DNA of 64,000 bases from Anaeromyxobacter diazotrophicus (GCF_013340205.1 NZ_BJTG01000009.1:124001-188000); one strand, 5' to 3'. Shown: positions 38,745-57,160, numbered from the stretch's first letter. Numbers and translations are program-made. The notes: generated by a model from the letters alone, not told the origin.

Positions 38745-40736
38745 ATGGCCCGAACCGCTCGCGACCCGATGACCATGCGACTCCTGCCGCTCTGCGCCCT
38801 CCTCGCGCTCCTCGCCTCGCCCGCGCGCGCCGCGGCCGACGAGGCCGCCGAGCTCACCGTGCTCAGCTACCACGAGGTCGCGGACGCCGCCCAGGCGCGG
38901 GTGCCGTCGTACGCGGTGACGCCGACCAACTTCGTCCGGCAGATGGACTGGCTGCGCAACCACGGCTACCGCTTCGTGGCGGTGGACGACGTGCTCGCCG
39001 CCCGCGCCGGGAAGCGGCCGCTGCCCCCCAAGGCGGTGCTCGTCACCTTCGACGACGGCTACCAGTCGGTCTACGAGCACGCGTGGCCGGTGCTGAAGCT
39101 GTTCCGCATCCCCGCGGTGATGAACGTCGTGGCGGGCTGGCTGGAGGAGAAGGAGAAGGTCCACTTCGACGGCCGCGACCTGCCGCGGCGGGACTTCATG
39201 TCCTGGGCCGCGCTCCGCGAGATGGCCGAGAGCGGGCTGGTCGAGATCGGCAGCCACTCCTTCGACCTGCACCGCGGGCTCCAGGGGAACCCGCAGGGGA
39301 ACGTGGAGCCGGCCGGCACCGTCCGCCGCTACGACCCGGCGACGAGGCGCTACGAGGACGAGGCGGCCTACCGCAAGCGCATCCAGTCCGACCTCGAGCG
39401 CGGCAGCGCCCTCATCCGCCGCCACACCGGGCGGGCGCCGCGCGTCATCGCCTGGCCGTACGGGCGCTACAACACCATCACCCGCGAGGTCGCCCAGCGG
39501 CTCGGCATGCCCATCGGCCTCACCCTCGAGGACGGCGCCAACGTGCGCGACACGCCGCTGTGGGGGCTGCGGCGCATCCTGGTCGAGAGCGGCATGCGGC
39601 TGTGGGACCTCGAGCGCGAGATCGCGACCCGCGAGCAGAACCTCTCGGACAACGACCGCCCGCAGAAGACGATGCACGTCGATCTCGACTACCTGTACGA
39701 CCCGGATCCCGCCCAGCAGGACCGGAACCTCGGCCACCTGCTCGACCGCATCGAGAAGATGGGCGTGAACACCGTCTACCTGCAGGCGTTCTCCGATCCG
39801 GACGGCAACGGCTCCGCCAACGCCGTCTACTTCCCCTGCCGCCGCGTCCCCATGCGCGCCGACCTCTTCAACCGGGTGGCCTGGCAGATCCGGACCCGCA
39901 CCGCGGTGCGGCGGCTGTACGCCTGGATGCCGGCCCTCGCCTGGGAGCTGCCCGCGAGCGATCCCGCCGCCGGGGATCGGGTGACGGCGGTCGCCGGCGA
40001 CCGCACCGACCGCGTGAACATGGGGTACCTGCGGCTCTCGCCCTTCTCGGCCCGCGCCCGCCAGGCCGTGCGCGAGATCTACGAGGACCTGGCGCGGTCG
40101 GCGCGGTTCGACGGGCTCCTCTTCCACGACGACCTGACGCTCTCGGACTACGAGGACGCCAGCCCGGCCGCCCTCGCCGCCTACCGCGCCTGGGGGCTGC
40201 CCGGCTCGGTGGAGGAGATCCGCAAGAGCGACGACCTCCTCGGCCGGTGGACCATCCTCAAGATCAACGCGCTCGACGACTTCGCCCTGGAGCTGGCCGC
40301 GATCGTCCGGGCGGAGCACCCCGCGCTCAAGACCGCGCGGAACCTCTACGCGCAGGTGGCCCTCAACCCCAAGGCGGAGGTCTGGTACTCGCAGTCCCTC
40401 GACAACTCCGTCGCGCGCTACGACTTCACCGCCGTCATGGCCATGCCGTACATGGAGAAGGCTCGCGACCACGCGGCCTTCTTCCACGACCTGGTCCGGG
40501 CGGCGGACGACCGCGGCGCCCTGCGCAAGGTGGTGTTCGAGCTGCAGGCGGTGGACTGGCGGGAGGACAACCGGCTCATCCCGACCGAGGAGCTGGCCGA
40601 CCGCATCCGCGACCTCTACCGCCTCGGCGCGACGCACGTCGGCTACTATCCCGACGCGCTGTTCCGCGACCACCCGGTGCCCGGCGTCATGAAGGCCGCG
40701 TTCGACGCCGCGCCCAACGCCGTCCAGGCGCGCTGA
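38745..40736 (+). CDS. pgaB: Poly-beta-1,6-N-acetylglucosamine N-deacetylase PgaB
   Basis: 663 residues; starts at 38745, 38769 or 38775 are all in frame, and the signal peptide proper is MRLLPLCALLALLASPARA. The polysaccharide deacetylase domain has VTFDDG (Asp103, Asp104) and EIGSHSFDLH (His171, His176), the metal-binding set. The C-terminal half is the PgaB-type TIM-barrel hydrolase domain (MHVDLDYLYDPDPAQQDRNL, FDGLLFHDDLTLSDYEDAS). It deacetylates PNAG in the periplasm before export. It is followed 13 bp later by pgaC. Confidence 0.95.
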   Translation: MARTARDPMTMRLLPLCALLALLASPARAAADEAAELTVLSYHEVADAAQARVPSYAVTPTNFVRQMDWLRNHGYRFVAVDDVLAARAGKRPLPPKAVLVTFDDGYQSVYEHAWPVLKLFRIPAVMNVVAGWLEEKEKVHFDGRDLPRRDFMSWAALREMAESGLVEIGSHSFDLHRGLQGNPQGNVEPAGTVRRYDPATRRYEDEAAYRKRIQSDLERGSALIRRHTGRAPRVIAWPYGRYNTITREVAQRLGMPIGLTLEDGANVRDTPLWGLRRILVESGMRLWDLEREIATREQNLSDNDRPQKTMHVDLDYLYDPDPAQQDRNLGHLLDRIEKMGVNTVYLQAFSDPDGNGSANAVYFPCRRVPMRADLFNRVAWQIRTRTAVRRLYAWMPALAWELPASDPAAGDRVTAVAGDRTDRVNMGYLRLSPFSARARQAVREIYEDLARSARFDGLLFHDDLTLSDYEDASPAALAAYRAWGLPGSVEEIRKSDDLLGRWTILKINALDDFALELAAIVRAEHPALKTARNLYAQVALNPKAEVWYSQSLDNSVARYDFTAVMAMPYMEKARDHAAFFHDLVRAADDRGALRKVVFELQAVDWREDNRLIPTEELADRIRDLYRLGATHVGYYPDALFRDHPVPGVMKAAFDAAPNAVQAR

Positions 40737-40749
40737 GGAGGGCCGCCGC

Positions 40750-42015
40750 GTGACCGCCGTCGAGACGCTGTGGAACGGCCTCGTGGCGTTCGTCTTCTAT
40801 TACCCGCTCTTCATGTCGTTCCTGTGGATGACGGGCGCCGCGCTGTTCTGGTGGCGCTTCGAGCGCCACGAGGCCCCCTGGGATCGGCCGGTGCCGCTGC
40901 GCGGCGCGCCGCCGGTGAGCGTCCTCATCCCATGCTTCAACGAGGCCGACAACGCCGAGGAGACCCTCGGGCACGCGCTCGCGATCGACCACCCCGAGTT
41001 CGAGGTGGTGGCCATCGACGACGGCAGCACCGACGGCACCCCCGCCATCCTGGACCGCCTGGCGGCGCGCCACCCGCGGCTGCGCGTGGTGCACCTGGCG
41101 GAGAACCAGGGCAAGGCGATGGCGCTGCAGGCGGGCGCCCTCCTGGCGCGCCACGAGATCCTCGTCTGCATCGACGGCGACGCGCTCCTCGACCGGCACG
41201 CCGCGCACTGGCTCGTGCGCCACTTCGTGGAGTGCCCCGAGGTCGCGGCGGTGACCGGCAACCCGCGCATCCGCAACCGCTCGACCCTGCTCGGGCGCGT
41301 GCAGGTGGGGGAGTTCTCGTCCCTGGTCGGCATCATCAAGCGGGCGCAGCGCTTCTTCGGCCGGATCTTCACCGTCAGCGGGGTCATCACTGCCTTCCGG
41401 AAGTCCGCCGTGCACGGGGTCGGCTACTGGAGCGCCGACGTGCTCACCGAGGACATCGACATCACCTGGAAGCTGCACCGCGCGGGCTGGGACGTCCGGT
41501 TCGAGCCGAACGCGCTCACCTGGATCCTCATGCCCGAGACGCTGCGCGGGCTGTGGAAGCAGCGGCTCCGGTGGGCGATGGGCGGCGCGCAGGTCCTGCT
41601 CAAGAACCTGGACGCGCTGATCCGGCCGGGGCAGCGCTTCCTGTGGCCGCTCCTGCTCGAGATGTGCGCCAGCCTCACCTGGGCCTACGCCATGCTACTC
41701 CTGGCGGTGATGTGGCTGCTCGGGTTGGCGCTGCCCGCCGGCCTCATGCCGGACGTCGGCTCGCCGCTCAGCCCCCAGGGCTGCGGCGTGCTCCTGGGCG
41801 CCACCTGCCTCCTGCAGTTCGCCTTCAGCGCGTGGCTCGACGGCCGCCACGACCGCGGGCTCGCGCGGAACCTGTTCTGGATGATCTGGTTTCCCGTGGC
41901 GTTCTGGGCGATCAGCTGCGCCGCGACGGTGGCGGCCTACCCGAAGGTCATCGCCCGCGGCCGGGGAGCGCGGGCGAGGTGGGTCAGTCCGGACCGCGGC
42001 ATCCGGCCCGACTGA
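40750..42015 (+). CDS. pgaC: PNAG synthase, family-2 glycosyltransferase PgaC
   Basis: 421 residues from a GTG. Domains: an N-terminal membrane helix, a GT2 domain with SVLIPCFNEADNAEETL, VAIDDGSTDG, CIDGDALLD, TEDIDITWKL (acceptor Asp/catalytic TED) and QRLRWAMGG (QxxRW), then three or four C-terminal membrane helices. It polymerises UDP-GlcNAc into poly-beta-1,6-GlcNAc across the inner membrane with PgaD. It is translationally close to pgaB. Confidence 0.95.
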   Translation: MTAVETLWNGLVAFVFYYPLFMSFLWMTGAALFWWRFERHEAPWDRPVPLRGAPPVSVLIPCFNEADNAEETLGHALAIDHPEFEVVAIDDGSTDGTPAILDRLAARHPRLRVVHLAENQGKAMALQAGALLARHEILVCIDGDALLDRHAAHWLVRHFVECPEVAAVTGNPRIRNRSTLLGRVQVGEFSSLVGIIKRAQRFFGRIFTVSGVITAFRKSAVHGVGYWSADVLTEDIDITWKLHRAGWDVRFEPNALTWILMPETLRGLWKQRLRWAMGGAQVLLKNLDALIRPGQRFLWPLLLEMCASLTWAYAMLLLAVMWLLGLALPAGLMPDVGSPLSPQGCGVLLGATCLLQFAFSAWLDGRHDRGLARNLFWMIWFPVAFWAISCAATVAAYPKVIARGRGARARWVSPDRGIRPD

Positions 42016-42074
42016 CTCGTTCGCGTGAATACCGGGCGGGCGCTGGCCGTCCAGCCACTGGACCGGGCAGCCAG

Positions 42075-42101
42075 GTTCGGGTACACCGCCTGCACCCGAA
42101 C
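42075..42101 (+). other. Perfect hairpin in the pgaC-pgaD spacer
   Basis: GTTCGGGT (42075-42082) and ACCCGAAC (42094-42101) pair over 8 bp with an 11-base loop in the 134-bp gap between pgaC and pgaD. It could attenuate or process the transcript to set PgaD levels, but there is no T-run for termination. Confidence 0.5.
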
Positions 42102-42149
42102 GAGCACCCGCGGTGGGTTCACTCGACTCGCCCGGCGCCAGACACGACC

Positions 42150-42608
42150 ATGAGCTGCTCACTCATCATCGACGCACGCCGCCAGCTCCGGTGGCACGAG
42201 CGCCTGCTCTCGGACGCCTCCACGGCGATCCTCTGGAGCGGCTGGCTGTGGCTGTGCCTGCCGCTGCTCCGCGCCTACGCCTCGCTCGCCCAGCTCGGTC
42301 CCCGCCTCAGCCCGGCGCTCCCGGACCTCCTCGCGCTCGGCTCGGAGGACGTCCTCGGGCAGTCGGTGGTGGCGCTCATCGGCGCCTCGGGCACCCTCAT
42401 GGCGTGGAACCGCCTCCCGGCGCGGCGCGCGCGCGCGGCGCCGGCGCTGTCGCCTCGCGAGCAGGCGCAGTACTTCGAGCTGCCCGAGCAGGAGCTCCGG
42501 GCCGGGCGCGAGGCCGCGGTGGTGGTGGTGCACCACGACGCGCAGGGCCGCATCGTCCGGCTGGAGCAGCGCGCGCTCTGCGCGCACGCCGAGGATCGGG
42601 CGGCGTAG
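42150..42608 (+). CDS. pgaD: PNAG biosynthesis protein PgaD
   Basis: 152 residues. Small membrane protein with two helices (TAILWSGWLWLCLPLLRAYASL and GQSVVALIGASGTLMAWNRL) flanked by cytosolic parts, with a ~60-residue soluble tail containing SPREQAQYFELPEQELRAGR. PgaD stabilises and activates the PgaC synthase, with c-di-GMP control in E. coli. Identification rests on gene order and topology, as PgaD is poorly conserved. Confidence 0.8.
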   Translation: MSCSLIIDARRQLRWHERLLSDASTAILWSGWLWLCLPLLRAYASLAQLGPRLSPALPDLLALGSEDVLGQSVVALIGASGTLMAWNRLPARRARAAPALSPREQAQYFELPEQELRAGREAAVVVVHHDAQGRIVRLEQRALCAHAEDRAA

Positions 42609-44346: not shown

Positions 44347-44362
44347 TGGCACCTGCGATGCA
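44347..44362 (+). promoter_or_regulatory. Sigma-54 promoter of the multicopper oxidase operon
   Basis: TGGCAC-CTGCG-ATGCA: GG (44348-44349) and GC (44360-44361) are separated by exactly 10 bases, and the -24 box matches the consensus TGGCAC fully. It lies ~32 bp before the first ATG of the operon and has an enhancer-like palindrome upstream. Confidence 0.85.
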
Positions 44363-44393: not shown

Positions 44394-45875
44394 ATGCGCA
44401 CCACGCACCCCCGCACGTTCCTGGCGCTCGCCGTCGCCCTCTCCGCCGCCTCCGCCCACGCCCAGTCGTTCCGCGTGCAGTGCCCGGCCACGACCGACCT
44501 GCACCCCAACGGCAGCAGCGTCGACCCCGCGCACCCGGGCCTCATCAAGTGCCAGCACGTCGGCGGCGGCGACGGGTACGCCACGATGGCCGACGGCCAC
44601 CAGATCTACCTCTTCGCCTTCAGCCCGCTCTCCGGCCTGAAGGACATCCAGGCCGGCCTTCCCGGCACGCAGACCGCGGACGTGTTCAACGGCGGGTACG
44701 TGGGGCCGAACTACTCCTCGATGGGCGCCAGCGGCCCCAACGCCGCGCCTGCCCCCAACAACGGGGCCATCACCGAGCCGGCCGGCATCATGGACCTGGG
44801 CGTGCTCGCCGGGAACGCGCCGGCGCCGCTCATGGCGATCGACGAGGACGACGAGCTCTTCCTCACGCTCAGCAACCCCGGCATGATCATGCGGCCGGAT
44901 CTCTTCGAGCAGCACACCGTCCACTTCCACGGCTACCCCAACGCCTCCGCCTTCTTCGACGGCGTGCCCGACGCCTCGGTGGCGATCAACATCGCCGGGA
45001 GCTTCACCTACTACTACACGGCCCCCGACGCGGGGACGTACTTCTGGCACTGCCACATCACCCCGCCCGAGCACCTGCAGATGGGCATGGTGGGCCAGCT
45101 CTACGTGCGCCCGCGCCAGAACCGCCTGACCTCCTCGGACGACCTGGGCGCGGCGCTGCAGGCCGCGAACCGGCGGGCGGCGGTGGACCCGCTCGCCAGC
45201 GGGCGCTCGTGCAGCGACATCCTCTGCACCGGCCAGACCCCACTGCCGAGCGGCGCCGCGCCCACCGGCGCGACCGGCATCACCGGCGGCGGCCGCTACG
45301 CCTACAACGACGGCGACGGCTCCACCCGCTACGACGTCGAGTACCCGATCCAGCTCATGGGGTTCGACCCCAACTTCCACTACGTCGGCATGACCTTCAA
45401 CCCGGAGGCCTTCGCCGACATGAAGGACAAGTACTTCCTCCTGAGCGGCCGCGGCTATCCGGACACCGTCAACGCCGGGCCCATCTCCACCCTCTCCTCC
45501 GACGGCGTCGCGCGCCCCTCCCAGCCGCTGCCCAGCCTCATCACCATCGCCAAGTCCGCGGGCCAGACGCGGGCGCTGCTGCGCCTGTCGATGCTCAGCG
45601 TGACCGAGCACGTGACCCTCGGGACGGTGGGGATCCCGATGAAGGTCATCGCGCAGAACGCCCGCCTGCTGCGCGACCTGGCCGGGGGCGACACCACCTT
45701 CCTGACCAACTCCATCACCCTCGGCGGCGGCGAGTCGGCCGACGTCATCCTCGACGTGAGCGACCCGCGGTACACGCCGGGTCAGACCTTCTTCCTCTAC
45801 AGCACCAACCTCGACCACCTGTCGAACGACGCCGAGAACTTCGGCGGGATGATGACCGAGATCCGGATCAACTAG
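44394..45875 (+). CDS. Exported multicopper oxidase subunit 1 (type-1 copper half)
   Basis: 493 residues with a signal peptide (MRTTHPRTFLALAVALSAASAHA). The front cupredoxin carries HTVHFHG (His174, 177, 179) and WHCHITPPEHLQMGM (His219, Cys220, His221, His227, Met232). That is a full type-1 site plus four trinuclear-cluster histidines. The rear ~250 residues are a second cupredoxin-like part without copper motifs. The two-residue insertion in HCH-x5-H with MGM resembles, as I recall it, MofA/MnxG-type manganese oxidases more than laccases. It should act in the periplasm or outside the cell. It is the first gene of the operon, with the next ORF 8 bp downstream. Confidence 0.88.
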   Translation: MRTTHPRTFLALAVALSAASAHAQSFRVQCPATTDLHPNGSSVDPAHPGLIKCQHVGGGDGYATMADGHQIYLFAFSPLSGLKDIQAGLPGTQTADVFNGGYVGPNYSSMGASGPNAAPAPNNGAITEPAGIMDLGVLAGNAPAPLMAIDEDDELFLTLSNPGMIMRPDLFEQHTVHFHGYPNASAFFDGVPDASVAINIAGSFTYYYTAPDAGTYFWHCHITPPEHLQMGMVGQLYVRPRQNRLTSSDDLGAALQAANRRAAVDPLASGRSCSDILCTGQTPLPSGAAPTGATGITGGGRYAYNDGDGSTRYDVEYPIQLMGFDPNFHYVGMTFNPEAFADMKDKYFLLSGRGYPDTVNAGPISTLSSDGVARPSQPLPSLITIAKSAGQTRALLRLSMLSVTEHVTLGTVGIPMKVIAQNARLLRDLAGGDTTFLTNSITLGGGESADVILDVSDPRYTPGQTFFLYSTNLDHLSNDAENFGGMMTEIRIN

Positions 45876-45883
45876 GACCCGCC

Positions 45884-47344
45884 ATGACGCCCTCCTCGAC
45901 GAAGCAGAGCCGCGGCTCCGCCCTGGTGCTCCTCGCCTCGCTCGCGCTGGCCGGCCTGGTGCCGGCGCACGGCGCGCGGGCGGCGGTCCCGGGCATCACC
46001 GGCCCGTCGTTCAACCTGGTCGCGAGCGCCGACTTCATCAGCCAGCCCGACGGCGCGTCGATCTACTCCTGGGGCTACGGCTGCGATCCGGCCAGCGCGC
46101 CCTCCTTCGCGCCGTTCCCGGGCAACTGCCCCGAGATGCAGCTGCCGGGGCCGACCCTGATCGTCACCGAGGGCCAGGTGGTGACGGTCACGCTGCGGAA
46201 CAACCTGCCCCCCGCCGCGGGCAACACCTCGATCCTGTTCCCGGGCTTCCAGGTGACCACGCAGGGCACCGGCGTGGCCGGGCGCTTCACCCAGGAGGCC
46301 GCCAGCGGCGGCGGCTCGGTCACCTACACCTTCACGGCGACCACCCCCGGCACGCACGCCTACTACAGCGGCACGCAGGCCGACCTGCAGGTGGAGATGG
46401 GGCTCTTCGGCGCGCTGGTGGTGCTGCCGGCGGCGCCGCCCGCGGGCTGCGCCCGGCGCCCGTTCTCGCTGGCGGCCTCGGCCTACGACCACCCCTCGAC
46501 CTGCTACGACCGCGAGTACATGTTCCAGCTCAGCGAGCTCGACTCGCGCATCCACGACCGGGCGCTGGCGCAGGTGCAGGCCTGCGCGGCGGCCCCCTGT
46601 CCTCCCATCGTCGCCGTCACCGAGCCCTACCGGCCCAACTACTTCCTCCTCAACGGGCGCTCGATGCCCGACGACATGGACACCCCCTACGCGCCCGGGT
46701 ACGTCCACCAGCCGTACAACGCCAACCCGCACATGCACCCCGGCGAGAAGGTCCTCATGCGGATCATCGGCCAGGGGCGCTGGCAGCATCCGTTCCACTT
46801 CCACGGCAACCACGCGCGCGTGCTGGCGCGCGACGGCAACCTGCTCCTGAGCGCGGTCGACGGGAGCTCGCTGGCCGGCCCGCTGCTGTTCACGACCCCC
46901 ACCGTCTCCGGCCAGACGCAGGACCAGATCTTCACCTGGACCGGCAAGGGCCTGAACTGGGACGTGTACAACCACCGCGCCGGCGACGGCAGCCGGTGCA
47001 CCCCGGACGCGAGCGGCTACCACGCCGTCGCCACCGACCCGAACTACGGCGAGTGGTGCGCCGACCACCTGAAGCCGATCCCGGCCAACCCGCCCGACCC
47101 CAACATCGTCGCCATCGGGCAGTGGTACGGCGGCACCCCTTACCTCGGCCTGCAGACCACCGGCGGCTTCACGAGCACCAACGAGCCGCCCGGCACGCTC
47201 AACCAGAACCCGCAGGCCGGCTACGCGTACATGTGGCACTCGCACAACGAGCGCGAGATCACGACCAACGACGTGTTCCCCGGCGGGATCATGTCGATGC
47301 TGCTGATCGATCCCCCGGCGTGGTTCATCGACGAGACGCTCTGA
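45884..47344 (+). CDS. Exported multicopper oxidase subunit 2 (no type-1 copper)
   Basis: 486 residues with a signal peptide ending near AHGARA. The N-terminal cupredoxin (QLPGPTLIVTEGQVVTVTLRNNLPP, GTHAYYSGTQADLQVEMGLFG) has the multicopper-oxidase fold but lost all His motifs. The C-terminal one has QHPFHFHGNH (His302, 305, 307) and MWHSHNEREI (His452, 454) with PGGIMSML. This supplies four trinuclear histidines, but with Ser in place of the type-1 Cys. Together with subunit 1 exactly eight HxH histidines and one type-1 site are present, so the two probably form one active heteromer. Confidence 0.85.
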   Translation: MTPSSTKQSRGSALVLLASLALAGLVPAHGARAAVPGITGPSFNLVASADFISQPDGASIYSWGYGCDPASAPSFAPFPGNCPEMQLPGPTLIVTEGQVVTVTLRNNLPPAAGNTSILFPGFQVTTQGTGVAGRFTQEAASGGGSVTYTFTATTPGTHAYYSGTQADLQVEMGLFGALVVLPAAPPAGCARRPFSLAASAYDHPSTCYDREYMFQLSELDSRIHDRALAQVQACAAAPCPPIVAVTEPYRPNYFLLNGRSMPDDMDTPYAPGYVHQPYNANPHMHPGEKVLMRIIGQGRWQHPFHFHGNHARVLARDGNLLLSAVDGSSLAGPLLFTTPTVSGQTQDQIFTWTGKGLNWDVYNHRAGDGSRCTPDASGYHAVATDPNYGEWCADHLKPIPANPPDPNIVAIGQWYGGTPYLGLQTTGGFTSTNEPPGTLNQNPQAGYAYMWHSHNEREITTNDVFPGGIMSMLLIDPPAWFIDETL

Positions 47345-47361: not shown

Positions 47362-50300
47362 ATGCGAACCCATCTCTCCCTGCGCAATCGCTGCTCCTCG
47401 CTGGCCGTCCTCGCCCTCCTGCTCGCCGCCGGCGCGGCGTGCGGCTCGAAGAGCCGCGCCGCCCGCGCCACGGCGGCCACCGCCCGCGGCCGCGCGACGC
47501 CGCTCACCAACGTGGCCGGCACGCCCATCCACCTCACCGCGCGGCGCATGACCACCACCCTGCGCGACGGCACGCCTTCGCCGATGTGGGGCTTCTGCGA
47601 GACGAGCGCCTGCCCCGCGAGCGGCGCCTGGGCCCCGGGCCCGACCATCTACGCCCGGGCGGGCGACGCGCTGCAGATCGACCTCACGAACGAGCTGCCG
47701 GTGCCGACCTCGCTGGTGGTGCTGGGGCAGCTCGGCGGCGGCCTCGGCTCGCCGCAGAAGATGGACAGCCCGGCGCACCCGGGCCAGGCGTTCACGACCT
47801 TCCCCGGCAACGCGCCGGCGCCCATCCCCTTCGTGCCGCCGGTCCAGGGGCAGCGGGTCCGCTCCTTCGGCGCCGAGGTGCCCGCCGCCACCACCAGCAT
47901 CCTGACCTGGTCGAGCCTGCGGCCGGGGACCTACCTCTACGAGACGGGCACGCTCCCGTCGCTCCAGGTGCCGATGGGCCTGTACGGCCTGCTCGTCGTG
48001 ACCACCGCCCCGTCGGGCTCGGGCGGGAGCTTCACGCCCGGCACGGCGTACCCCGGCGTGAGCTACGACGACGACGCGGCGCTCCTGTTCAGCGAGATCG
48101 ACCCGGCGCAGAACGCCGCGGTCGACGCCGCCGCCGTCGCCGGGACCGACCTCAACCGCCGCTTCGACGACCCGGCCTGCTCCGCCGCCTCGCCCTGCTA
48201 CCCGGCGGCCGTGAACTACACGCCGACCTACTTCCTCATCAACGGGCAGCCGTTCGACGAGACGGCCCCCCAGGGCTCCGCGTTCACGGTCGGAGACACC
48301 GCCGCCTACCGTAGCGGCAACGTCCTGCTGCGGCTCGCGAACGCGGGCTCGCGCACCCACGTCCCGACCGTCGTCGGGCTGAAGCTGGCGCTGGTGGGCG
48401 AGGACGGGAACCTCGCGCCCGGGAACCCCAAGGTCCAGGACGTGGCCCTGCTCACCGCCGGCAAGACCTACGACGTGGTGGTGAAGCCACCGGCGGCCGC
48501 CGGCGGGGCGTCCTACGCCGCCGGCACCTACCCGGTGTTCGACCGCGCGCTGAGCCTCGGCACCGCCAACCACCCCGACGGCGGCATGCAGGGCTTCCTG
48601 CTGGTGAACCACGCGGCCGCCCCGACCGTCACCTCGCTCGTCGACGGCGTCTCGGTGACCGTCCCGGTGGCGGGCGCGCCGGGGAACCTGCCCACGGCCG
48701 TCACGCCCGCCGCCAACCCGGACAGCTTCAACGTCCCGTACGGCCGTAGCTTCAGCGCCAGCGTGACGGCCAACGACGTCGCCATCACCCGCGTGGCGCT
48801 GGGGAGCGGCCCGAGCCACGGCCTCCTCGCCCTCGCGCCGGACGGCGGCTTCACCTACACGCCCTCCTCCGGCTTCAGCGGCGCCGACCAGTTCACCTAC
48901 GTGGGCAACGGCGTGCCCGCGCTGACGGCGACGGTGACGCTGAACGTCGCCGCGAAGCTCACCGGCGACGCGAACCGCCCGGTCGCGGCCCCCGACAGCT
49001 ACACCAGCAGCCTCGCCACCAAGCTCAGCGTCCCCCGGCCCGGCGTGCTGGCGAACGACGCCGATCCCAACGGGTTCCCGCTCACCGCGGGCGGGGTGAG
49101 CGGCAGCACCTGCGACTCCGTCGCGCTCGCGCCGGACGGCTCGTTCAGCGTCACCGTCGCAGGGACGCCGCCCCCGCCCTCCTGCCAGTTCTCCTACACC
49201 GCGACCAACTCCCAGCAGACCTCGAGCGCCCCCGCCCTGGTGACGGTGAGCTTCGGCCTCGCCGGCGGGGTGTCGGGGCTGGCCGTCTCGGTGGTGGACG
49301 CCGCCAGCGGCGCGGCCATCCCCGACTACCGCTGGACCCTGCAGGAGGACCTCACCTTCAAGCACGACCCGAGCGGCACCCCGGCGCTCAGCACGCGCAC
49401 CATCGGCACGAGCTTCCACCGGAGCCACATGCCCATCGTGGCGACCGGCTGCGTCGGCCCGGTGAGCTGCGGCAGCGGCCAGTCCGCCGGCGGCGTCACG
49501 ATCTCGGACGCCGACGCCCTGGCGCGCCAGACGACGCCGGACCAGGTCGTGCTCGATCCGACCAAGAGCTACTACCTCTCGATCCTCCCCGGGGACGGCA
49601 GCCCCCCGGGCCACGCCATGGGCGGCGGCCAGGTCACGCTCGCTCACGGCGCCTGGGCGAAGCTCACCGTCAAGCTCCAGGCGACGCCGCTCGTGCCGGC
49701 GCAGCTCAGCGTCTACATCTACGAGGACAGCGCCCCGACGAACGGCCAGAACGAGGACACCGAGAGCGGCCTCGGCGGCTTCAACATCATCCTCGTGGAT
49801 CCGGCCGGCCGCACCGGCGATCCGGCGGGCCAGCAGACCTACGACGCCTTCAACATGCCGCTCTCGAACGCGCTCCTCGGCACGCCGGGCTGCCCGGACG
49901 AGCAGAACCCCGGCACGAACGGCACCGGGACGTCGGCGGCGGGCAACCTCGTCGGCGCCGTCTACACCTGCCCCAACGATCCGAACGCCGGCACCCCGGC
50001 GGCCAATCCGGCCCGGTACGCGCTCGCCGGGCACGCGCTCATCAAGAACCTCACCCCGGCCCGCTACGACGTCATCGCGCACCCCGGCGCGGCCCGCGAG
50101 GGCGCGGGCGAGGTGTGGTGGCAGACCGAGACGCTGGAGGGCACGCCCGCCCAGGACGCGTTCGTCGGCATCAACGAGCCGGTCTACTTCCAGGAGTTCG
50201 GCCCGCCCGGCCCGCACACCACCGTCGGCTTCGTGAACCCGGCGCGCGTCGCGAGCTACGCCGCCGCCCACGGCCTGACGGGCAGCCACGTCGTCACCGG

Positions 50301-53300
50301 CAAGGTGACGAACCAGCACATGTCCCGCCCCTCCGACGTGACGCTGTGGGACTCGGGCTCCTACGACCTCCTGTCCTCCACGACCTGTCGGGTGGTGCTC
50401 AACTCCCAGGCCGGGAACGGGCCGGCCATCGCCGCCGCCCAGTGCAACCCCGACGGCACCTTCACGCTGAGCGGCGTCGCGGCCGGCGAGTACGACCTGG
50501 CGGTCTTCGACCAGTGGCTCGACCAGATCATCCAGAACGTGGCGGTGAGCGTCCCGGCCGCGGTGGCGACCGTCGCCCTCGGCGATCTGCCGGTGCTGAG
50601 CTGGTTCACGCAGTACGACCAGAACATCTTCATGGACACCAACGGGAACGGGAAGTACGACCCCGGCGAGCCCGGGATCTCCAACGTCCCGCTCACCGTG
50701 CGCTACCGCAACGGCGCGCCCTCGAACGTCACGCTCAGCGACAGCAACGGGAACGGCATCCTGGTCGAGCTCTTCCCGCTCTTCAACTGGTACGTCGCCG
50801 AGGCCGACACCACGCGCTACAAGCAGACGGGCGTCCACGTGGTCGTCGACGGCGGCGGCAAGCCGGACGCGAGCGGCCCCGGCGCCGGCCTGTGGACCTC
50901 CACCTACGCCAACCCCGACGACGGCTCGACCGAGCGGACGGAGCAGCCCGGCGCGCTCAGCTACGGCCTGCAGGGCTTCATCAGCCAGCGGAACCGCGTC
51001 GACTGGGGCCGCGCGCCCTACGCGAAGGGGGAGAACGGCGGGATCGTCGGGACGGTCGTCTACTCCTCCACCCGTCCCTTCGACGACATGCGCTTCAACG
51101 TGCAGACCATCTGGGAGCCGCTCGTCCCGCGCGTCCCGGTGAACCTGTACCAGAAGCGCACGCTGCCCGACGGCACCGAGGCGCTGACGCTCGTCGACTC
51201 GACCACCACCTCCAGCTTCGACGACTACGTGAACCGGGTGTACGGCGCCGACGGCGGCCAGTACCTCCTCGGCTCCGACGGCAAGCTCCGCGATCCCGAC
51301 AGCGGCGCCCCCGCGCCCGCCGCGGCCTACCCGGCCGGCCGGCAGGTCAACCTGCAGTGCCCGGGGCAGGTCGCCACCGATCCCTTCGTCGGCTATACGC
51401 TGGGCGCCGGCGACCGCCAGCGCTGCTACGACGGCTGGCACGCCTGGAACCAGGTGCAGGCCGCGCCCTACGACGGCCGCTACACCTTCCCCAGCCCGGC
51501 GTACGCCGCCGCCCACCCGCTGACCGCGGCGCAGCGCGCCGCCGGTCAGACGCTGGTGAGCCTGCCGACCGGCACCTACGTGGTCGAGATCGTCCCGCCG
51601 CCCGGCTACCAGATCGTCAAGGAGGAGGACAAGAACATCCTCATCGGCGACACCTTCGTGGCGCCCGCCACCCAGCAGTTCGGCGCCCTCGCCAGCGTCT
51701 TCATCCTGCCCGACCAGGCCACCCTCGGGAACGCCAACCCGAACAACCCGGGCACCGGCGACCCCGGCTTCCAGAGCAACCCGACCACGAACCTCGGCGT
51801 CTACGGCCTGTCGAACGCCACCACCTTCCCCGAGTGCGTGGGCAACCTCCACCGCGTGCCGGACTTCCTGAGCCTCTACCCGCAGGCGCAGCAGGTCGCG
51901 CCGTTCGCCGGGATGGACCGGCCGCTCTGCGACCGCAAGCAGGTGGTCCTCAACGACCAGATGCAGGCGAGCGCGTACTTCTTCGTCTTCACCGAGGTGC
52001 CCGCCGCCTCGAACAACACCGGCATCATCCTCGACGACGCGTCCTCCGAGTTCAACGCGGTGTCGCCGGACTTCGGCGAGAAGGCCTCCGTGCCCTTCGT
52101 GCCGGTGTCGATCAAGGACTTCACCGGCCTCGAGATCAGCCGCACCTACAGCGACCAGTGGGGCGCGTACAACATGATGACGCCCTCGAGCTGGCTGGTG
52201 AACCCGCCCACGCCGTCCGGCTACGGGCCGAACATGCTGGTCACCTGCATCAACGACCCGGGGCCCATCGCCGATCCCGCCACCGGCCAGCTCGTGACCG
52301 ACCCGCACTACAACCCGGCCTACAGCAACTTCTGCTACACGAACCCGTACATGCCGGGGCAGACCACCTACCTCGACACCCCGGTGCTGCCCATCGCCGC
52401 CTTCGCCGCCGGCTACAACCCGGCCGACTGCGCCCTGCCCGACGGCGCGCCCGCCATCCAGCGCGTGGACAGCAGCGCCGGCTTCGGGCCCTGGCTGCCC
52501 ACCGCAGGCGGCACCCTGACCATCACCGCCCAGGGCGACCAGCAGGTGCCGAACCCGGCCTACGCCGGCCCGTTCGCCGCGGGCGGGCTCGCCAGCCAGA
52601 CCACGATCGCGCGCCACTACGGCTTCGGCGACGCGCGCGGCACGCTCAAGATCGGCGACGTCGACCTCACCAGCCGGGTGACGGGCTGGACCGACGCGGC
52701 CATCACCGTGGCCGTGCCGGCCCACACGCCGAGCGGCGAGCTCGCCATCACCACCGCCGCCGGGAAGGCCTCCGTGGACACGGTCACCGTCACCCTCGAG
52801 GACCGCGCGCCGACGCGCGTGTCGAGCGGCATGGCCATCCAGGACGCCATCGACCTCGCCAACCCGGGCGAGCTGATCCTGGTCGACGCCGGCACCTACA
52901 GCGAGCTGCTCATCATGTGGAAGCCGGTGCGCCTGCAGGGCGTCGGCGCCGGCGCGGTGATCGTCAACGCCGCCAAGTACCCGACGAGCAAGCTCGCGGC
53001 CTGGCGGCCGCGCATCAACGCCCTCTTCGCCATCGACCCCGTCACCGGCAACCAGCTCGGCCCGTCGCAGGTCGATCCGCTCCCGAGCCAGGAGATCACG
53101 GGCGGCGTGGTCCTGCTCGAGCCCTCCGTGCTCGGCTCCGAGGAGGGCGCCGGCATCACCGTGCTCGCTAAGAACCTCCCCGCCTCGGCCTGCGGCGTCA
53201 CCGGCTCGCCCGGCTGGGACAGCAACTTCCGCTGCGCCCCCTCGCGCATCGACGGGATCGCCGTCACGGGCGGCGACGCCGGCGGCGGCATCTACGTGAA

Positions 53301-55623
53301 CGGCTGGGCGCACGACCTCGAGATCTCGAACAACCGCGTCTACGGCAACGCCGGCGCCTACCACGGCGGCATCCGGGTGGGCGTGCCCTACCTCGAGCTG
53401 GAGAGCCTGCCGACCGGGCCCAGGGGGGAGGTCCTCCTCGACGGGCAGCGGATCGCCGGGTTCGGGTACGACGAGCACGTGCGGATCCACCACAACGCGA
53501 TCACCAAGAACGGCACCGTCGAGGCGCCGGCCGGCAGCGGCGGCGCGGGCGGCGGGGTGTCGATCTGCACCGGCACCGACCACTACAGCGTCGACCACAA
53601 CTTCGTCTGCGGCAACTACGGCGGCTCGGACGGCGGCGGCATCGGCCACCTCGGCTTCAGCCAGGGCGGCCTCATCGCCTACAACCAGATCCTCTTCAAC
53701 CAGAGCTTCCAGCAGACGAGCTCCACCCACGGCGGCGGCATCGCGGTGGCAGGCGAGCCCCCGGTGGCGGGCGCGGTGTCGCTTGGCACGGGGGACCTCA
53801 CCATCGACGCCAACCTCATCCGCGGCAACTTCGCCGAGGGTGGCCAGGGCGGCGGCATCCGGCTGCAGCAGGTGAACGGCGCGGACGTGAGCGCCTTCGG
53901 GCAGCCGGCGCGCTGGCACAAGGTGACGCTCTCCAACAACATGATCGTCGACAACGTCGCCGGCTGGGCGGGCGGCGGCGTCTCGCTGGCCGACGCGGTG
54001 AACGTCTCCATCGTCAACAACACGGTCGCGTCGAACGACAGCGCCGGCATCGCGGGCGTGGTGCTGGCCGGCGGGGTGGCCCTCCCCGGCGCGACCCCGG
54101 GCACGGCCGGCGCGGGCCGGCCCAGCCCCTCGGGCATCGTCTCGGAGCGCACCAGCGCGGCGCTGCTGTCGCAGTTCAGGAACGCCGGCCAGCGGACCGC
54201 CAACGCCATCTCGCGGCCGGAGCTCGTGAACGACATCGTCTGGCGGAACCGCTCGTTCTACTACTCCGGGGACGGCCGGCTCTGCGTGGGCAACAGCCTG
54301 GCCGCCACCGCGGGCGCGTGCACGACGCTGCCGGATCAGGCCACGAGCGGGCAGTGCCCGGCGGGCGCCGCGTACTGGGACCTCGGGGTCCTCGGCGACG
54401 CGAGCGCGGTCCCCGGCGCGGTCCACCTCGACCCGTCCTACTCCATCCTGACCAGCCTGGCCGGCTACGGCGGGGTGGGCAACAAGGCCTCCGACCCGCA
54501 GCTCGTGCAGCCGTACTGCAACGGCTCGCGCGCGGTCCCGGAGCTGGCGAGCGTCATCAACCCGCCCAGCCCGAAGAACCTCCAGGTGGCGGCCACCGTG
54601 GACGAGGGCAACAACTACGTCAACCTGCGGTACGGACCGCTGTACCTCGCGAACCCGGTCACCGGGGCAGCCGTCGGCGACGATCACCTCGGGGGCGCGG
54701 TGGTCTCCGCGGGCGTGGTCACCGGCTCGACCTCTCCCGCCTTCAACGCCGGCACCGCGACCGACGCGCCGGACCACGACTTCGACGGCCAGCCGCGCCC
54801 GCTCGCCGGCGCGTACGACATCGGCGCCGACGAGTTCCTCGTGCCGTCGCCCATCCTGGCGGTGAGCCCGAGCCCGCTCTCCTTCTCGGCGGTGTCGGTC
54901 AACACCACCCGCACCCTCTCGGTGACGGTCTCGAACGCGGCGGCGGCGACCGCCAACCTCGTCCTGGGGGCGCCCACGCTGACCGCCGGGACCTCCGGCA
55001 GCAGCCAGCCGGCCCGCTACAGCCTCGGCACCACCTGCCCCTCCGGCGGCGCGGGCCTCGCGCCCGGCGCCTCGTGCGCCATCGCGGTGACCTTCGCGCC
55101 CACCGCGGTCACCCTGCCCTCGACCCAGACCGCCACGCTCCGCGTGGTCGCGACCAACGCCCCCTCCACCACCGTGGCGCTCTCCGGCACGGGCGTCGTC
55201 CCCGTGTACCGCATCACGCCGGGGCCGCTCACCGGCCACGGCTTCGGCAACCAGGCGGTGGGGACCGCGAGCGCGCCCTTCCAGCTCACGGTCACGAACG
55301 GCGGCTCATTCCCGCTGGCGGGGGGCGAGCTGTGGCTGACCGGCGACCCGCTCCTGACCGGCACCTACGCCGGCCAGTTCCGGGGCGCCTTCCGGGCGGG
55401 CGACACCTGCACCGCCACCACCCACCTCGCCGCCGGCGCCTCGTGCACCTTCAGCGTGGCCTTCGCGCCCACCTCCGCGGGGGCGAAGGGGACGAGCGCG
55501 CTCAACGCCGGCGCGCGGGTGGACGTGGCGCACGCGCCCGGCGCCGTGAACGGCGGCGGCGCAGGCTCGCCGGTGTGGGGCACCGGCGTCGCCACCACCG
55601 CCCTCGCCGCCCCCGCGCGCTGA
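47362..55623 (+). CDS. Giant exported multidomain protein (inert cupredoxin, Ig-like, SdrB-like, IPT, beta-helix)
   Basis: 2753 residues, starting 17 bp after subunit 2. Signal sequence with a possible but weak lipobox (LLAAGAAC, Cys27). Residues ~45-420 are a multicopper-oxidase-like cupredoxin pair without copper ligands (TNELPVPTSLVVLGQLGGG where LHxHG is expected). Ig/cadherin-like repeats lie at ~447-633 (SGFSGADQFTYVGNG) and SdrB/carboxypeptidase-regulatory-like domains around 1092 (DTNGNGKYDPGEPGISNVPL). An IPT/TIG-like domain spans ~1707-1813, a right-handed parallel beta-helix ~1815-2243 (HNAITKNGTV, GIGHLGFSQGGLIAYNQIL), and a choice-of-anchor/ASH-like tail ~2493-2747. This is the look of a large surface scaffold. 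It probably holds or displays the oxidase, and no catalytic residues are evident. Confidence 0.85.
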   Translation: MRTHLSLRNRCSSLAVLALLLAAGAACGSKSRAARATAATARGRATPLTNVAGTPIHLTARRMTTTLRDGTPSPMWGFCETSACPASGAWAPGPTIYARAGDALQIDLTNELPVPTSLVVLGQLGGGLGSPQKMDSPAHPGQAFTTFPGNAPAPIPFVPPVQGQRVRSFGAEVPAATTSILTWSSLRPGTYLYETGTLPSLQVPMGLYGLLVVTTAPSGSGGSFTPGTAYPGVSYDDDAALLFSEIDPAQNAAVDAAAVAGTDLNRRFDDPACSAASPCYPAAVNYTPTYFLINGQPFDETAPQGSAFTVGDTAAYRSGNVLLRLANAGSRTHVPTVVGLKLALVGEDGNLAPGNPKVQDVALLTAGKTYDVVVKPPAAAGGASYAAGTYPVFDRALSLGTANHPDGGMQGFLLVNHAAAPTVTSLVDGVSVTVPVAGAPGNLPTAVTPAANPDSFNVPYGRSFSASVTANDVAITRVALGSGPSHGLLALAPDGGFTYTPSSGFSGADQFTYVGNGVPALTATVTLNVAAKLTGDANRPVAAPDSYTSSLATKLSVPRPGVLANDADPNGFPLTAGGVSGSTCDSVALAPDGSFSVTVAGTPPPPSCQFSYTATNSQQTSSAPALVTVSFGLAGGVSGLAVSVVDAASGAAIPDYRWTLQEDLTFKHDPSGTPALSTRTIGTSFHRSHMPIVATGCVGPVSCGSGQSAGGVTISDADALARQTTPDQVVLDPTKSYYLSILPGDGSPPGHAMGGGQVTLAHGAWAKLTVKLQATPLVPAQLSVYIYEDSAPTNGQNEDTESGLGGFNIILVDPAGRTGDPAGQQTYDAFNMPLSNALLGTPGCPDEQNPGTNGTGTSAAGNLVGAVYTCPNDPNAGTPAANPARYALAGHALIKNLTPARYDVIAHPGAAREGAGEVWWQTETLEGTPAQDAFVGINEPVYFQEFGPPGPHTTVGFVNPARVASYAAAHGLTGSHVVTGKVTNQHMSRPSDVTLWDSGSYDLLSSTTCRVVLNSQAGNGPAIAAAQCNPDGTFTLSGVAAGEYDLAVFDQWLDQIIQNVAVSVPAAVATVALGDLPVLSWFTQYDQNIFMDTNGNGKYDPGEPGISNVPLTVRYRNGAPSNVTLSDSNGNGILVELFPLFNWYVAEADTTRYKQTGVHVVVDGGGKPDASGPGAGLWTSTYANPDDGSTERTEQPGALSYGLQGFISQRNRVDWGRAPYAKGENGGIVGTVVYSSTRPFDDMRFNVQTIWEPLVPRVPVNLYQKRTLPDGTEALTLVDSTTTSSFDDYVNRVYGADGGQYLLGSDGKLRDPDSGAPAPAAAYPAGRQVNLQCPGQVATDPFVGYTLGAGDRQRCYDGWHAWNQVQAAPYDGRYTFPSPAYAAAHPLTAAQRAAGQTLVSLPTGTYVVEIVPPPGYQIVKEEDKNILIGDTFVAPATQQFGALASVFILPDQATLGNANPNNPGTGDPGFQSNPTTNLGVYGLSNATTFPECVGNLHRVPDFLSLYPQAQQVAPFAGMDRPLCDRKQVVLNDQMQASAYFFVFTEVPAASNNTGIILDDASSEFNAVSPDFGEKASVPFVPVSIKDFTGLEISRTYSDQWGAYNMMTPSSWLVNPPTPSGYGPNMLVTCINDPGPIADPATGQLVTDPHYNPAYSNFCYTNPYMPGQTTYLDTPVLPIAAFAAGYNPADCALPDGAPAIQRVDSSAGFGPWLPTAGGTLTITAQGDQQVPNPAYAGPFAAGGLASQTTIARHYGFGDARGTLKIGDVDLTSRVTGWTDAAITVAVPAHTPSGELAITTAAGKASVDTVTVTLEDRAPTRVSSGMAIQDAIDLANPGELILVDAGTYSELLIMWKPVRLQGVGAGAVIVNAAKYPTSKLAAWRPRINALFAIDPVTGNQLGPSQVDPLPSQEITGGVVLLEPSVLGSEEGAGITVLAKNLPASACGVTGSPGWDSNFRCAPSRIDGIAVTGGDAGGGIYVNGWAHDLEISNNRVYGNAGAYHGGIRVGVPYLELESLPTGPRGEVLLDGQRIAGFGYDEHVRIHHNAITKNGTVEAPAGSGGAGGGVSICTGTDHYSVDHNFVCGNYGGSDGGGIGHLGFSQGGLIAYNQILFNQSFQQTSSTHGGGIAVAGEPPVAGAVSLGTGDLTIDANLIRGNFAEGGQGGGIRLQQVNGADVSAFGQPARWHKVTLSNNMIVDNVAGWAGGGVSLADAVNVSIVNNTVASNDSAGIAGVVLAGGVALPGATPGTAGAGRPSPSGIVSERTSAALLSQFRNAGQRTANAISRPELVNDIVWRNRSFYYSGDGRLCVGNSLAATAGACTTLPDQATSGQCPAGAAYWDLGVLGDASAVPGAVHLDPSYSILTSLAGYGGVGNKASDPQLVQPYCNGSRAVPELASVINPPSPKNLQVAATVDEGNNYVNLRYGPLYLANPVTGAAVGDDHLGGAVVSAGVVTGSTSPAFNAGTATDAPDHDFDGQPRPLAGAYDIGADEFLVPSPILAVSPSPLSFSAVSVNTTRTLSVTVSNAAAATANLVLGAPTLTAGTSGSSQPARYSLGTTCPSGGAGLAPGASCAIAVTFAPTAVTLPSTQTATLRVVATNAPSTTVALSGTGVVPVYRITPGPLTGHGFGNQAVGTASAPFQLTVTNGGSFPLAGGELWLTGDPLLTGTYAGQFRGAFRAGDTCTATTHLAAGASCTFSVAFAPTSAGAKGTSALNAGARVDVAHAPGAVNGGGAGSPVWGTGVATTALAAPAR

Positions 55624-55631
55624 GCTCGACC

Positions 55632-56159
55632 ATGCGCGGCGTGGCGACACGAGCCCTCGGGGCGGCGCTGCGGGCGTCCCTGCTCGCAGCGGCCCTCGCC
55701 GGCGCCGCGGCGCAGGCCGGGGAACCGGCGGCGGGCGCCCCACCTGCCGGCGGGCAGGCCCGGCCGCGCCCTCCGCGGGCGACCGCCGCGGCCGAGGCGG
55801 CGAGGTGGCACGCCCGCCACGGCCACTACTTCGAGCGCAACTGGGGGGTCGACGTGGTCGGCGTCCGGCGCGTCTCGTCCGGCTACATGCTGCGGTTCAA
55901 TTACCGCGTGGTCGATCCGGGCCGGGCGGCGGCGCTGACCGACCGCAAGGTGCGGCCGTACCTCATCGACGAGGCGACGCACACCGCGCTCGCGGTCCCG
56001 GCGATGGAGAACGTCGGCGAGCTGCGCCAGGTGGCCCCCCTCGAGCCGAACCGCACCTACTTCATGATCTTCGGCAACCCGGGCGGATTGGTGCGCAAAG
56101 GCGGGCACGTCACGCTCGTGATTGGTAATTTCCGAGCGGAAGGATTGGTCGTCGATTAG
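55632..56159 (+). CDS. Exported hypothetical protein of the oxidase operon
   Basis: 175 residues. The signal peptide (LRASLLAAALAGAAAQA) is followed by a Pro/Ala linker and a ~110-residue beta-rich domain (FERNWGVDVVGVRRVSSGYM, LRFNYRVVDPGRAAALTDRK, PNRTYFMIFGNPGGLVRKGG). It is periplasmic or surface-exposed and I do not recognise the family. It starts 8 bp after the giant gene and is thus part of the operon, where a folding or anchoring role is possible. Confidence 0.75.
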   Translation: MRGVATRALGAALRASLLAAALAGAAAQAGEPAAGAPPAGGQARPRPPRATAAAEAARWHARHGHYFERNWGVDVVGVRRVSSGYMLRFNYRVVDPGRAAALTDRKVRPYLIDEATHTALAVPAMENVGELRQVAPLEPNRTYFMIFGNPGGLVRKGGHVTLVIGNFRAEGLVVD

Positions 56160-56222: not shown

Positions 56223-57095
56223 ATGACGAGCCGCGTCCGGCCTGCCCCACCCCACGCGCCCTTCGCCGCGGCCCTCGCGCTCGCGCTGGCGCTCGCCGGC
56301 TGCCACCGCGCCAGCCCCGCCGAGCGCGCGGCGCGCCCGATCCTGGAGAAGAACGCGGCGGCGCGCGGCGGCGCCGCGGCCTGGCGCGCGGTCGAGTCCC
56401 TGGCGATGTCGGGCAAGCTCGAGGCAGGGCGGCCGCGCGACCCGGTCAAGCTGGCGGCGAGCTACCTCCGGCAGCTCCGCCAGACCAAGGGGGAGCTGCG
56501 GCGGGCCGCGGTCCAGGCCCGGGCGGCGGAGCCGGAGCAGCCCGTGCAGCTCCCCTTCGCGATGGAGCTGAAGCGGCCGCACAAGACTCGCCTGGAGATC
56601 GCCTTCCAGGGCCAGACCGCGGTCCAGGTGTTCGACGGCAGCCAGGGCCGGAAGCTGCGGCCGTTCCTCGGGCGCCGCGAGGTGGAGCCGTTCAGCGCCG
56701 AGGAGCTGCGGCTCGCCTCGCAGCAGGCCGAGCTCGACGGGCCCCTCCTCGAGGCCGCGGCCCGCGGGCACCGGGTGGCGCTGGTCGGCGAGGAGCAGGT
56801 CGAGGGGCGCGACGCGTACCGGCTCGCCATCACCTCGGCCGAGGGGCAGGTGCGGCAGGTCTGGGTGGACGCGCAGACCTTCCTCGACGTGAAGGTCGAC
56901 GGCGCCCGCCGCCTCGACGGAAAGAGCCGGGCGGTCTCGACCTACCTCCGCGACTACCGCCCGGTGCACGGGCTCATGATCCCGCACCTCCTCGAGACCG
57001 TCGTCGAGGGCGTCGAAGGCTCGGAGAAGATCACGATCGAGCGCGTCTTCCTGAACCCAGAGCTCGACGACGCCCGCTTCACCACGCCCCAGTGA
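56223..57095 (+). CDS. LolA/LppX-like exported lipoprotein
   Basis: 290 residues with a clear lipobox (LALALAGC, Cys27). The mature part has the look of outer-membrane lipoprotein-sorting (LolA-like) beta-sheets: AMSGKLEAG, KTRLEIAFQGQTAVQVFDGS, EGRDAYRLAITSAEGQVRQVWVDAQTFLDVKVDG, RDYRPVHGLMIPHLLETVVE. It probably binds a hydrophobic ligand or helps move lipoproteins or surface proteins of this operon. The role is inferred from fold only. Confidence 0.75.
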   Translation: MTSRVRPAPPHAPFAAALALALALAGCHRASPAERAARPILEKNAAARGGAAAWRAVESLAMSGKLEAGRPRDPVKLAASYLRQLRQTKGELRRAAVQARAAEPEQPVQLPFAMELKRPHKTRLEIAFQGQTAVQVFDGSQGRKLRPFLGRREVEPFSAEELRLASQQAELDGPLLEAAARGHRVALVGEEQVEGRDAYRLAITSAEGQVRQVWVDAQTFLDVKVDGARRLDGKSRAVSTYLRDYRPVHGLMIPHLLETVVEGVEGSEKITIERVFLNPELDDARFTTPQ

Positions 57096-57160
57096 GCCCG
57101 CCGCGCGCCCCTCGCCGCCGAGGCGGGGAGCCCGTTCACCCGCAGCCCCGAGAGGTCGCC

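Follow-up and report, generated by a model that had tools for sequence, protein, structure and literature searches.

The copper active site of O2-consuming multicopper oxidases normally lies in one chain or in identical copies of one chain. Can such a site be divided between the products of two different genes? The question is raised by a locus of Anaeromyxobacter diazotrophicus, located in a stretch of 64,000 nucleotides (GCF_013340205.1, NZ_BJTG01000009.1:124001-188000; hereafter, the window). Two adjacent plus-strand genes, here called P1 (44394 to 45875, 493 amino acids) and P2 (45884 to 47344, 486 amino acids), each encode a secreted protein of two cupredoxin domains, and an original prediction held that their copper ligands are complementary and that they form a heteromeric oxidase. 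As described below, sequence conservation and predicted structure make it likely that P1 and P2 serve as two subunits of a single multicopper oxidase whose one active site is split between the gene products, and very probable that the trinuclear copper site is shared between them.

Copper ligands of P1 and P2

Both proteins fall into the multicopper oxidase superfamily by Pfam matches that exceed the gathering threshold, since P1 matched Cu-oxidase_3 with 48 bits (cut-off, 21) and Cu-oxidase_2 with 43.7, and the corresponding scores of P2 were 53.1 and 27.1 bits. The first domain of P1 carries the motif HTVHFHG (H174, H177, and H179; HTVHFH at 44913 to 44930, plus strand) and the motif WHCHITPPEHLQMGM (H219, C220, H221, H227, and M232; HCHITPPEHLQMGM at 45048 to 45089, plus strand). 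In these motifs, H174, C220, H227, and M232 are assigned to a type-1 copper site and H177, H179, H219, and H221 to one-half of a trinuclear site. The second domain of P1, within the same gene (44394 to 45875, plus strand), is laccase D2-like and has no ligand set. In P2, the first domain is ligand free, and the second carries HPFHFHG (H302, H305, and H307; HPFHFH at 46787 to 46804, plus strand) and WHSH (H452, S453, and H454; HSH at 47237 to 47245, plus strand). Here H305, H307, H452, and H454 supply the other half of the trinuclear ligands, H302 is a type-1 relic, and S453 stands at the place of the type-1 cysteine. The full set of type-1 ligands and eight trinuclear histidines is therefore found in P1 and P2 together and in neither alone. 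Coordinates, motifs, and the confinement of the ligands to the front cupredoxin of P1 and the rear cupredoxin of P2 were thus as originally predicted, with the correction that the type-1-like H302 remains in P2 even though its type-1 cysteine is absent.

Conservation of these residues was evaluated in alignments of 76 P1 and 79 P2 sequences, counting the sequences in which the respective column is present. In P1, H174 was found in 71/71 sequences, H177 and H179 in 72/72, H219, C220, and H221 in 73/73, and H227 and M232 in 74/74; in P2, H302, H305, and H307 were found in 78/78 and H452, S453, and H454 in 79/79. Because each ligand is invariant wherever its column is present, while most other histidines of both proteins vary, the pattern is far beyond chance. 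A third two-cupredoxin paralogue, P3N (47362 to 48651, plus strand), which the original prediction had missed, forms the N-terminal part of a giant protein encoded directly 3' of P2. It shares homology with P2 (tblastn identity of about 28%) and contains neither copper ligands nor an invariant histidine or conserved HxH. P2 also has a third HxH, the HMH of residues 283 to 285 (46730 to 46738, plus strand), whose two histidines are not invariant (55/78 and 70/78). The earlier count of exactly eight HxH histidines consequently stands for the invariant pairs and fails as a raw count. The second domain of P2 also has an invariant H395, E456, and E458, which, like the HMH, are possible extra metal or proton-relay residues.

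The most divergent set, from the window's own family (L100; G017:C12:10000-29999), has SHNH in place of WHSH in P2. All eight trinuclear histidines of the set are kept, and the type-1 relic H302 and S453 are lost, suggesting what selection maintains. A profile comparison identified P1 and P2 as full-length paralogues (probability, 99.6; 287 columns) with both domains collinear. In this alignment, HTVHFHG and HCH of P1 lie opposite the ligand-free segments SILFPGF and YYSG of P2 domain 1, and HPFHFHG of P2 lies opposite a ligand-free segment of P1 domain 2. Judged by sequence, the two proteins seem to have arisen by duplication of a single two-domain ancestor and to have lost opposite ligand halves.

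The same motifs could be read in another way, with P1 and P2 as independent homo-oligomeric copper proteins that are merely co-transcribed, P1 being a type-1 electron carrier or nitrite-reductase-like enzyme and P2 a copper-binding or structural protein. P1 alone does have a full type-1 site, and copper nitrite reductases are among its sequence matches. These reductases, however, have a single histidine per ligand pair, forming a mononuclear type-2 site, and the second histidine of each HxH is absent, whereas P1 has both histidines of HxH and HCH in 72 of 72 or 73 of 73 sequences, which places it outside that pattern. Moreover, the trinuclear site is incomplete in either chain, yet all eight of its histidines are invariant; P1 and P2 were never found apart, and the read-through model described below packs the pair into a whole laccase shape. 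We therefore regard two independent proteins as quite improbable.

Co-occurrence and probable translational coupling

A genome scan with P2 yielded 78 loci in Myxococcota, Beta- and Gammaproteobacteria, Acidobacteria, desulfuromonad and other delta lineages, Planctomycetes, Verrucomicrobia, Lentisphaerae, and Kiritimatiellae, so that the split pair is kept across at least six bacterial phyla. Iron-cycling genera are represented among these loci. Among the loci fetched, the closest to the window, itself from an Anaeromyxobacteraceae genome, was that of Anaeromyxobacter oryzae. P1 adjoins P2 in 75/75 loci that are not interrupted by the end of a contig, and P3N follows P2 in all loci with an uncut contig. 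Within 195 Myxococcota genomes, a strong P1 was found in 13 and a strong P2 in the same 13, plus one on a truncated contig. No P1-P2 gene fusion was seen in the loci read, the genes being separate in all of them.

The junction between the two genes is also conserved. In the window, the stop codon TAG of P1 lies inside the ribosome-binding site of P2 (TAGGACCCGCCATG, 45873 to 45886, plus strand), and the P1 stop reads TAGG in 44/75 loci, mostly as TAGGAG, with the P2 start 7 to 11 nucleotides downstream. Since the P1 stop codon is part of the P2 ribosome-binding site, translation of P2 is probably coupled to that of P1. The adjacency of P1 and P2, 8 nucleotides apart and in different frames, might also be expected if a sequencing error or a recent frameshift had divided a single gene. 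That explanation is refuted, and its probability practically negligible, because the same two genes occur in 75 loci, both having a start and a signal peptide of their own, and the ribosome-binding site at the junction is frequent.

Gene order varies mainly around the giant protein. In the window's group it is fused to P3N, and in distant lineages P3N is a gene of its own, the giant being encoded 5' of P1 or fused to P1. This exchange of fusion partners points to one complex. The chromid of Cupriavidus metallidurans CH34 (L087; NC_007974.2, 1331097 to 1360491) carries P1, P2, the P3N-giant, the small protein, LolA-like genes, and the cytochrome, and the full set also occurs on the chromid of several Paraburkholderia. 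CH34 is a well-studied metal-resistant strain and a tractable knock-out host.

Structural model and related oxidases

To place the two halves relative to each other, we used an AlphaFold2 model of a compact Geothermobacter pair (L072), in which the stop codons were read through to give one chain of 851 amino acids, P1 followed by P2. The input alignment had 73 rows (11 paired and 62 unpaired, in-frame only), and the placement was checked on a local run. This model is of a distant homologue, about 40 to 60% identical to the other rows, rather than of the window's own pair, and comprises P1 and P2 without P3N. It was judged by superposition on known structures rather than by copper-ligand distances. 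The predicted template modelling (pTM) score was 0.81 and the predicted local distance difference test (pLDDT) score was 81, with low values only in loops and in the artificial linker. With VIA-align, the whole three-domain oxidase 6vow superposed on the model over 376/409 residues (root mean square deviation, 2.6 Å; Z, 26.3), spanning model residues 21 to 844, that is, from P1 domain 1 to P2 domain 2. Three-domain oxidases have their trinuclear cluster at the interface of domains 1 and 3. Since 6vow superposes and holds its cluster between these domains, P1 domain 1 and P2 domain 2 appear to be correctly placed for a shared site. A check on predicted structure had been proposed together with the original prediction, and in the read-through chain P1 domain 1 is indeed modelled against the last domain of P2, not apart from it. 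Taken together, the invariant complementary ligands, the strict co-occurrence, the probable translational coupling, and the superposition of this model on 6vow support the predicted heteromeric oxidase with a shared trinuclear site.

The best two-domain matches of the model were the type C laccases 2zwn (Z, 30.4) and 3g5w (Z, 30.3). Type C two-domain oxidases (3g5w from Nitrosomonas europaea, 2zwn from a metagenome, and 3gdc from Arthrobacter) are the best sequence and structure matches of P1 and P2. Like P1 and P2, they have two cupredoxins per chain and a type-1 site in domain 1, and their trinuclear site is formed where domain 1 meets domain 2 of the neighboring chain. However, these enzymes are homotrimers with three equal sites, whereas the halves of P1 and P2 come from different genes and the third paralogue has none. 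Because P1 domain 2 and P2 domain 1 are ligand free, no homotrimer of either protein can build the site.

The best Foldseek E-values were those of ceruloplasmin and factors V and VIII, which are rings of six cupredoxins; of the three interfaces in ceruloplasmin, a single one holds a trinuclear site. These proteins differ from P1 and P2 in being encoded by one gene, in having type-1 copper in the even domains, and in their chemistry. A forced sequential Foldseek match of the Geothermobacter model to ceruloplasmin gave a poor fit (TM score, 0.28), as expected if P2 packs against the face of P1 opposite to that taken by the following domain pair in a single chain.

The original prediction had gone further and described the pair as a split MnxG/MofA-like oxidase, possibly for Mn(II). 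A split MnxG-type member, with the MnxG type-1 domain and trinuclear arrangement and oxidizing Mn(II), would agree with the gene order, as type-1 motifs come first in MnxG (PMC3618234). MnxG of Bacillus (9bxa) belongs to the six-cupredoxin class and was, as 9bxa_A, a Foldseek match of both AlphaFold2 models; it was not among the results of single-domain searches of the PDB. In detail, however, the likeness is not supported. MnxG is one chain of 1,217 amino acids, and published analysis of bacterial six-domain oxidases assigns the type-1 site of MnxG-type proteins to domain 2 and their trinuclear site to the interface of domains 2 and 3 (PMC3600357). By this published description, a type-1 site in P1 domain 1 with its partner in P2 domain 2 of a separate gene would be the reverse layout, namely, that of the type C two-domain laccases such as 3g5w, which are also the closest structures. 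MnxG as a whole superposes poorly (sequential alignment TM score, 0.28), and no MnxE- or MnxF-like genes were noticed next to P1 and P2, though no search aimed at them was made. A split MnxG is accordingly unlikely. The type-1-first motif order originally stated for MnxG and MofA proved right for MnxG and wrong for MofA, in which the type-1 motifs are C terminal (PMC3618234). No single-chain MofA, OmpB, or MnxG was recognized in the 195 Myxococcota genomes or among the plasmid matches listed.

The wider locus and the proposed enzyme

P3N and the giant protein form one open reading frame of 2,753 amino acids (47362 to 55623), of which the part following P3N (48652 to 55623, plus strand) has Big/cadherin, SdrD_B, beta-helix, and choice-of-anchor domains. 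It is followed on the same strand by a conserved small secreted protein without a Pfam match (55632 to 56159), present in 46 of the fetched loci and, as a rule, directly after P3N or the giant. Next come a lipoprotein with a weak LolA-like match (56223 to 57095, plus strand), conserved in the window's group of loci (28 loci), and an SCO1/SenC copper chaperone (57092 to 57790, plus strand; PF02630, E value of 2.6e-19). The last gene of this series encodes a MofC-like c-type cytochrome (57787 to 59403, plus strand) with one CxxCH and a long C-terminal part resembling a periplasmic binding protein. Its PF00034 match (E value of 0.0021) is under the gathering cut-off, and it is MofC-like by architecture; a Paraburkholderia homologue is annotated as an ABC transporter substrate-binding protein. 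SCO1 and the cytochrome recur at many P1/P2 loci.

In other myxobacteria (L089 to L097, L104, L105, and L107), two consecutive SCO1-like segments lie with a cytochrome about 30 to 40% identical to the MofC-like protein. No P1, P2, or P3N relative was found within the stretch read, and this is a separate copper or cytochrome locus. Several neighbors in the window were identified by eye. An NtrC-family sigma-54 activator gene lies just 5' of P1 (42814 to 43839, plus strand), is 75% conserved in one locus (L004), and is not general among the loci. A sigma-54-like site, TGGCACCTGCGATGCA, occurs at 44347 to 44362, 32 nucleotides 5' of the P1 start; in a sigma-54 promoter search of the window, the number of matches was no higher than chance. 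Further upstream, a PgaB-like deacetylase/hydrolase, a PgaC-like glycosyltransferase, and a small PgaD-like frame (38745 to 42608, plus strand) resemble genes for poly-beta-1,6-N-acetylglucosamine synthesis, and what looks like a gene for a hybrid histidine kinase with a receiver domain (59528 to 61846, plus strand) lies directly 3' of the cytochrome gene.

By analogy, the SCO1 and MofC-like neighbors connect the set with the chemistry of iron and manganese outside the cell. In the iron and manganese bacteria Leptothrix and Geobacter, the mofA and ompB loci, respectively, encode an extracellular oxidase together with SCO1 and with a cytochrome of the MofC type that includes a periplasmic binding domain (PMC5566968), and the window locus matches these in SCO1 and the cytochrome by description rather than by sequence. 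P1 and P2 might thus be a split MofA/OmpB system, sharing the same locus logic but with the oxidase in separate genes and a role in extracellular metal redox, possibly Fe(III) reduction. In favor of this are the SCO1 and the cytochrome/periplasmic-binding-like protein lying 3', as fits mofC and SCO1 at those loci (PMC5566968), the occurrence of the set in iron-cycling genera, and the motif set without type 1 that comes first in MofA (PMC3618234), which is compatible with a fused order P2-P1. Conversely, MofA is a single chain of 1,661 amino acids with its copper motifs in the order A/B then C/D, the MofA and OmpB loci have a MofB-like isomerase not seen at the window locus, and the kinship was judged by description, not sequence. 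The originally predicted MofA link hence gains support from neighbors that had not been invoked for it and loses the support of motif order. We hold this explanation to be a real though lesser possibility. It overlaps our preferred one of a split multicopper oxidase, differing mainly in ancestry and in the direction of electron flow.

In the split four-copper oxidase that we favor, the type-1 copper would sit on P1 domain 1, bound by H174, C220, H227, and M232, and the trinuclear cluster would form only where P1 domain 1 (H177, H179, H219, and H221) contacts P2 domain 2 (H305, H307, H452, and H454). This contact would resemble that between neighboring subunits of type C two-domain laccases or between laccase domains 1 and 3. 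Electrons from a reduced substrate would pass to the type-1 copper and through His219-Cys220-His221 to the cluster, where O2 would be reduced to water, a path that is established chemistry of the multicopper oxidase family. The ligand-free P3N most likely completes a quasi-threefold ring, turning a homotrimer with three sites into a heterotrimer with one, and we consider such a ring somewhat more probable than its absence. Being fused or linked to this ring, the giant adhesin-like protein probably anchors it to the cell surface or to a mineral, SCO1 would supply copper, and the MofC-like cytochrome may join in electron transfer. The likeliest substrate would be Fe(II) or another reduced metal, possibly mineral bound, with metal oxidation as a role that is nearly an even matter. 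More tentative still is the combined view in which P1, P2, and P3N are obligate partners in a heterotrimeric ring of six cupredoxins, one of whose three interfaces is catalytic. Carried on a giant adhesin and oxidizing mineral-bound metal, such a ring might represent a surviving evolutionary stage that links two-domain oxidases of the homotrimeric type with six-domain proteins made as one chain, such as ceruloplasmin.

Several points weigh against this proposal. The case for a split site rests on sequence and predicted structure, and a single artificial P1-P2 chain could favor a laccase-like pose already seen by the network. A first AlphaFold2 model, from another read-through pair (L006; 1,011 amino acids) with a shallower alignment, reached a pTM of only 0.59 and was poorly defined around HTVHFHG, and none of the matches listed for it extended across P1 and P2 together; this model was judged too shallow and was not used as support. 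Electrons may also flow in the opposite direction, as there are metal reducers among the Anaeromyxobacter and Geothermobacter relatives, and Geobacter requires OmpB for Fe(III) oxide reduction (PMC5566968).

A gene cluster of this kind has been described in Sideroxydans lithotrophicus ES-1. The proteins Slit_1812 to Slit_1818 reached higher levels in late cultures on magnetite than in those on Fe(II)-citrate, the authors considered it plausible that they act in the oxidation of solid Fe(II), and similar clusters were named in Anaeromyxobacter, Paraburkholderia, and Ralstonia (PMC12016527, 2025). As far as the passages of that paper on the cluster go, it resembles the window set, by gene content rather than sequence, in three cupredoxin proteins (one a giant without motifs), SCO1, a cytochrome, and small proteins. 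Two of its proteins are described there with canonical multicopper oxidase motifs, and halves of one site are not mentioned in those passages (PMC12016527). A Sideroxydans metagenome-assembled genome (L010) carries the P1/P2/P3N trio. In the open-access literature, we found no report of a multicopper oxidase with a trinuclear site from two gene products and nothing relevant on a heterotrimeric or heteromeric multicopper oxidase. The gene cluster, then, has been known since 2025, and, as far as we found, the split active site, the meaning of the third paralogue, and the breadth of the family are new.

For annotation, two neighboring "multicopper oxidases" of this type are probably one enzyme, and the proposal offers a concrete enzyme hypothesis for an unexplained cluster raised on magnetite by a known iron oxidizer. 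Six-domain copper oxidases (ceruloplasmin, factors V and VIII, and MnxG) are believed to stem from a common ancestor whose three trinuclear sites disappeared stepwise (PMC3600357). The three separate two-domain genes would show that loss, with one site left and its halves in different chains, and since the subunits can be expressed one by one, this evolutionary step becomes directly testable.

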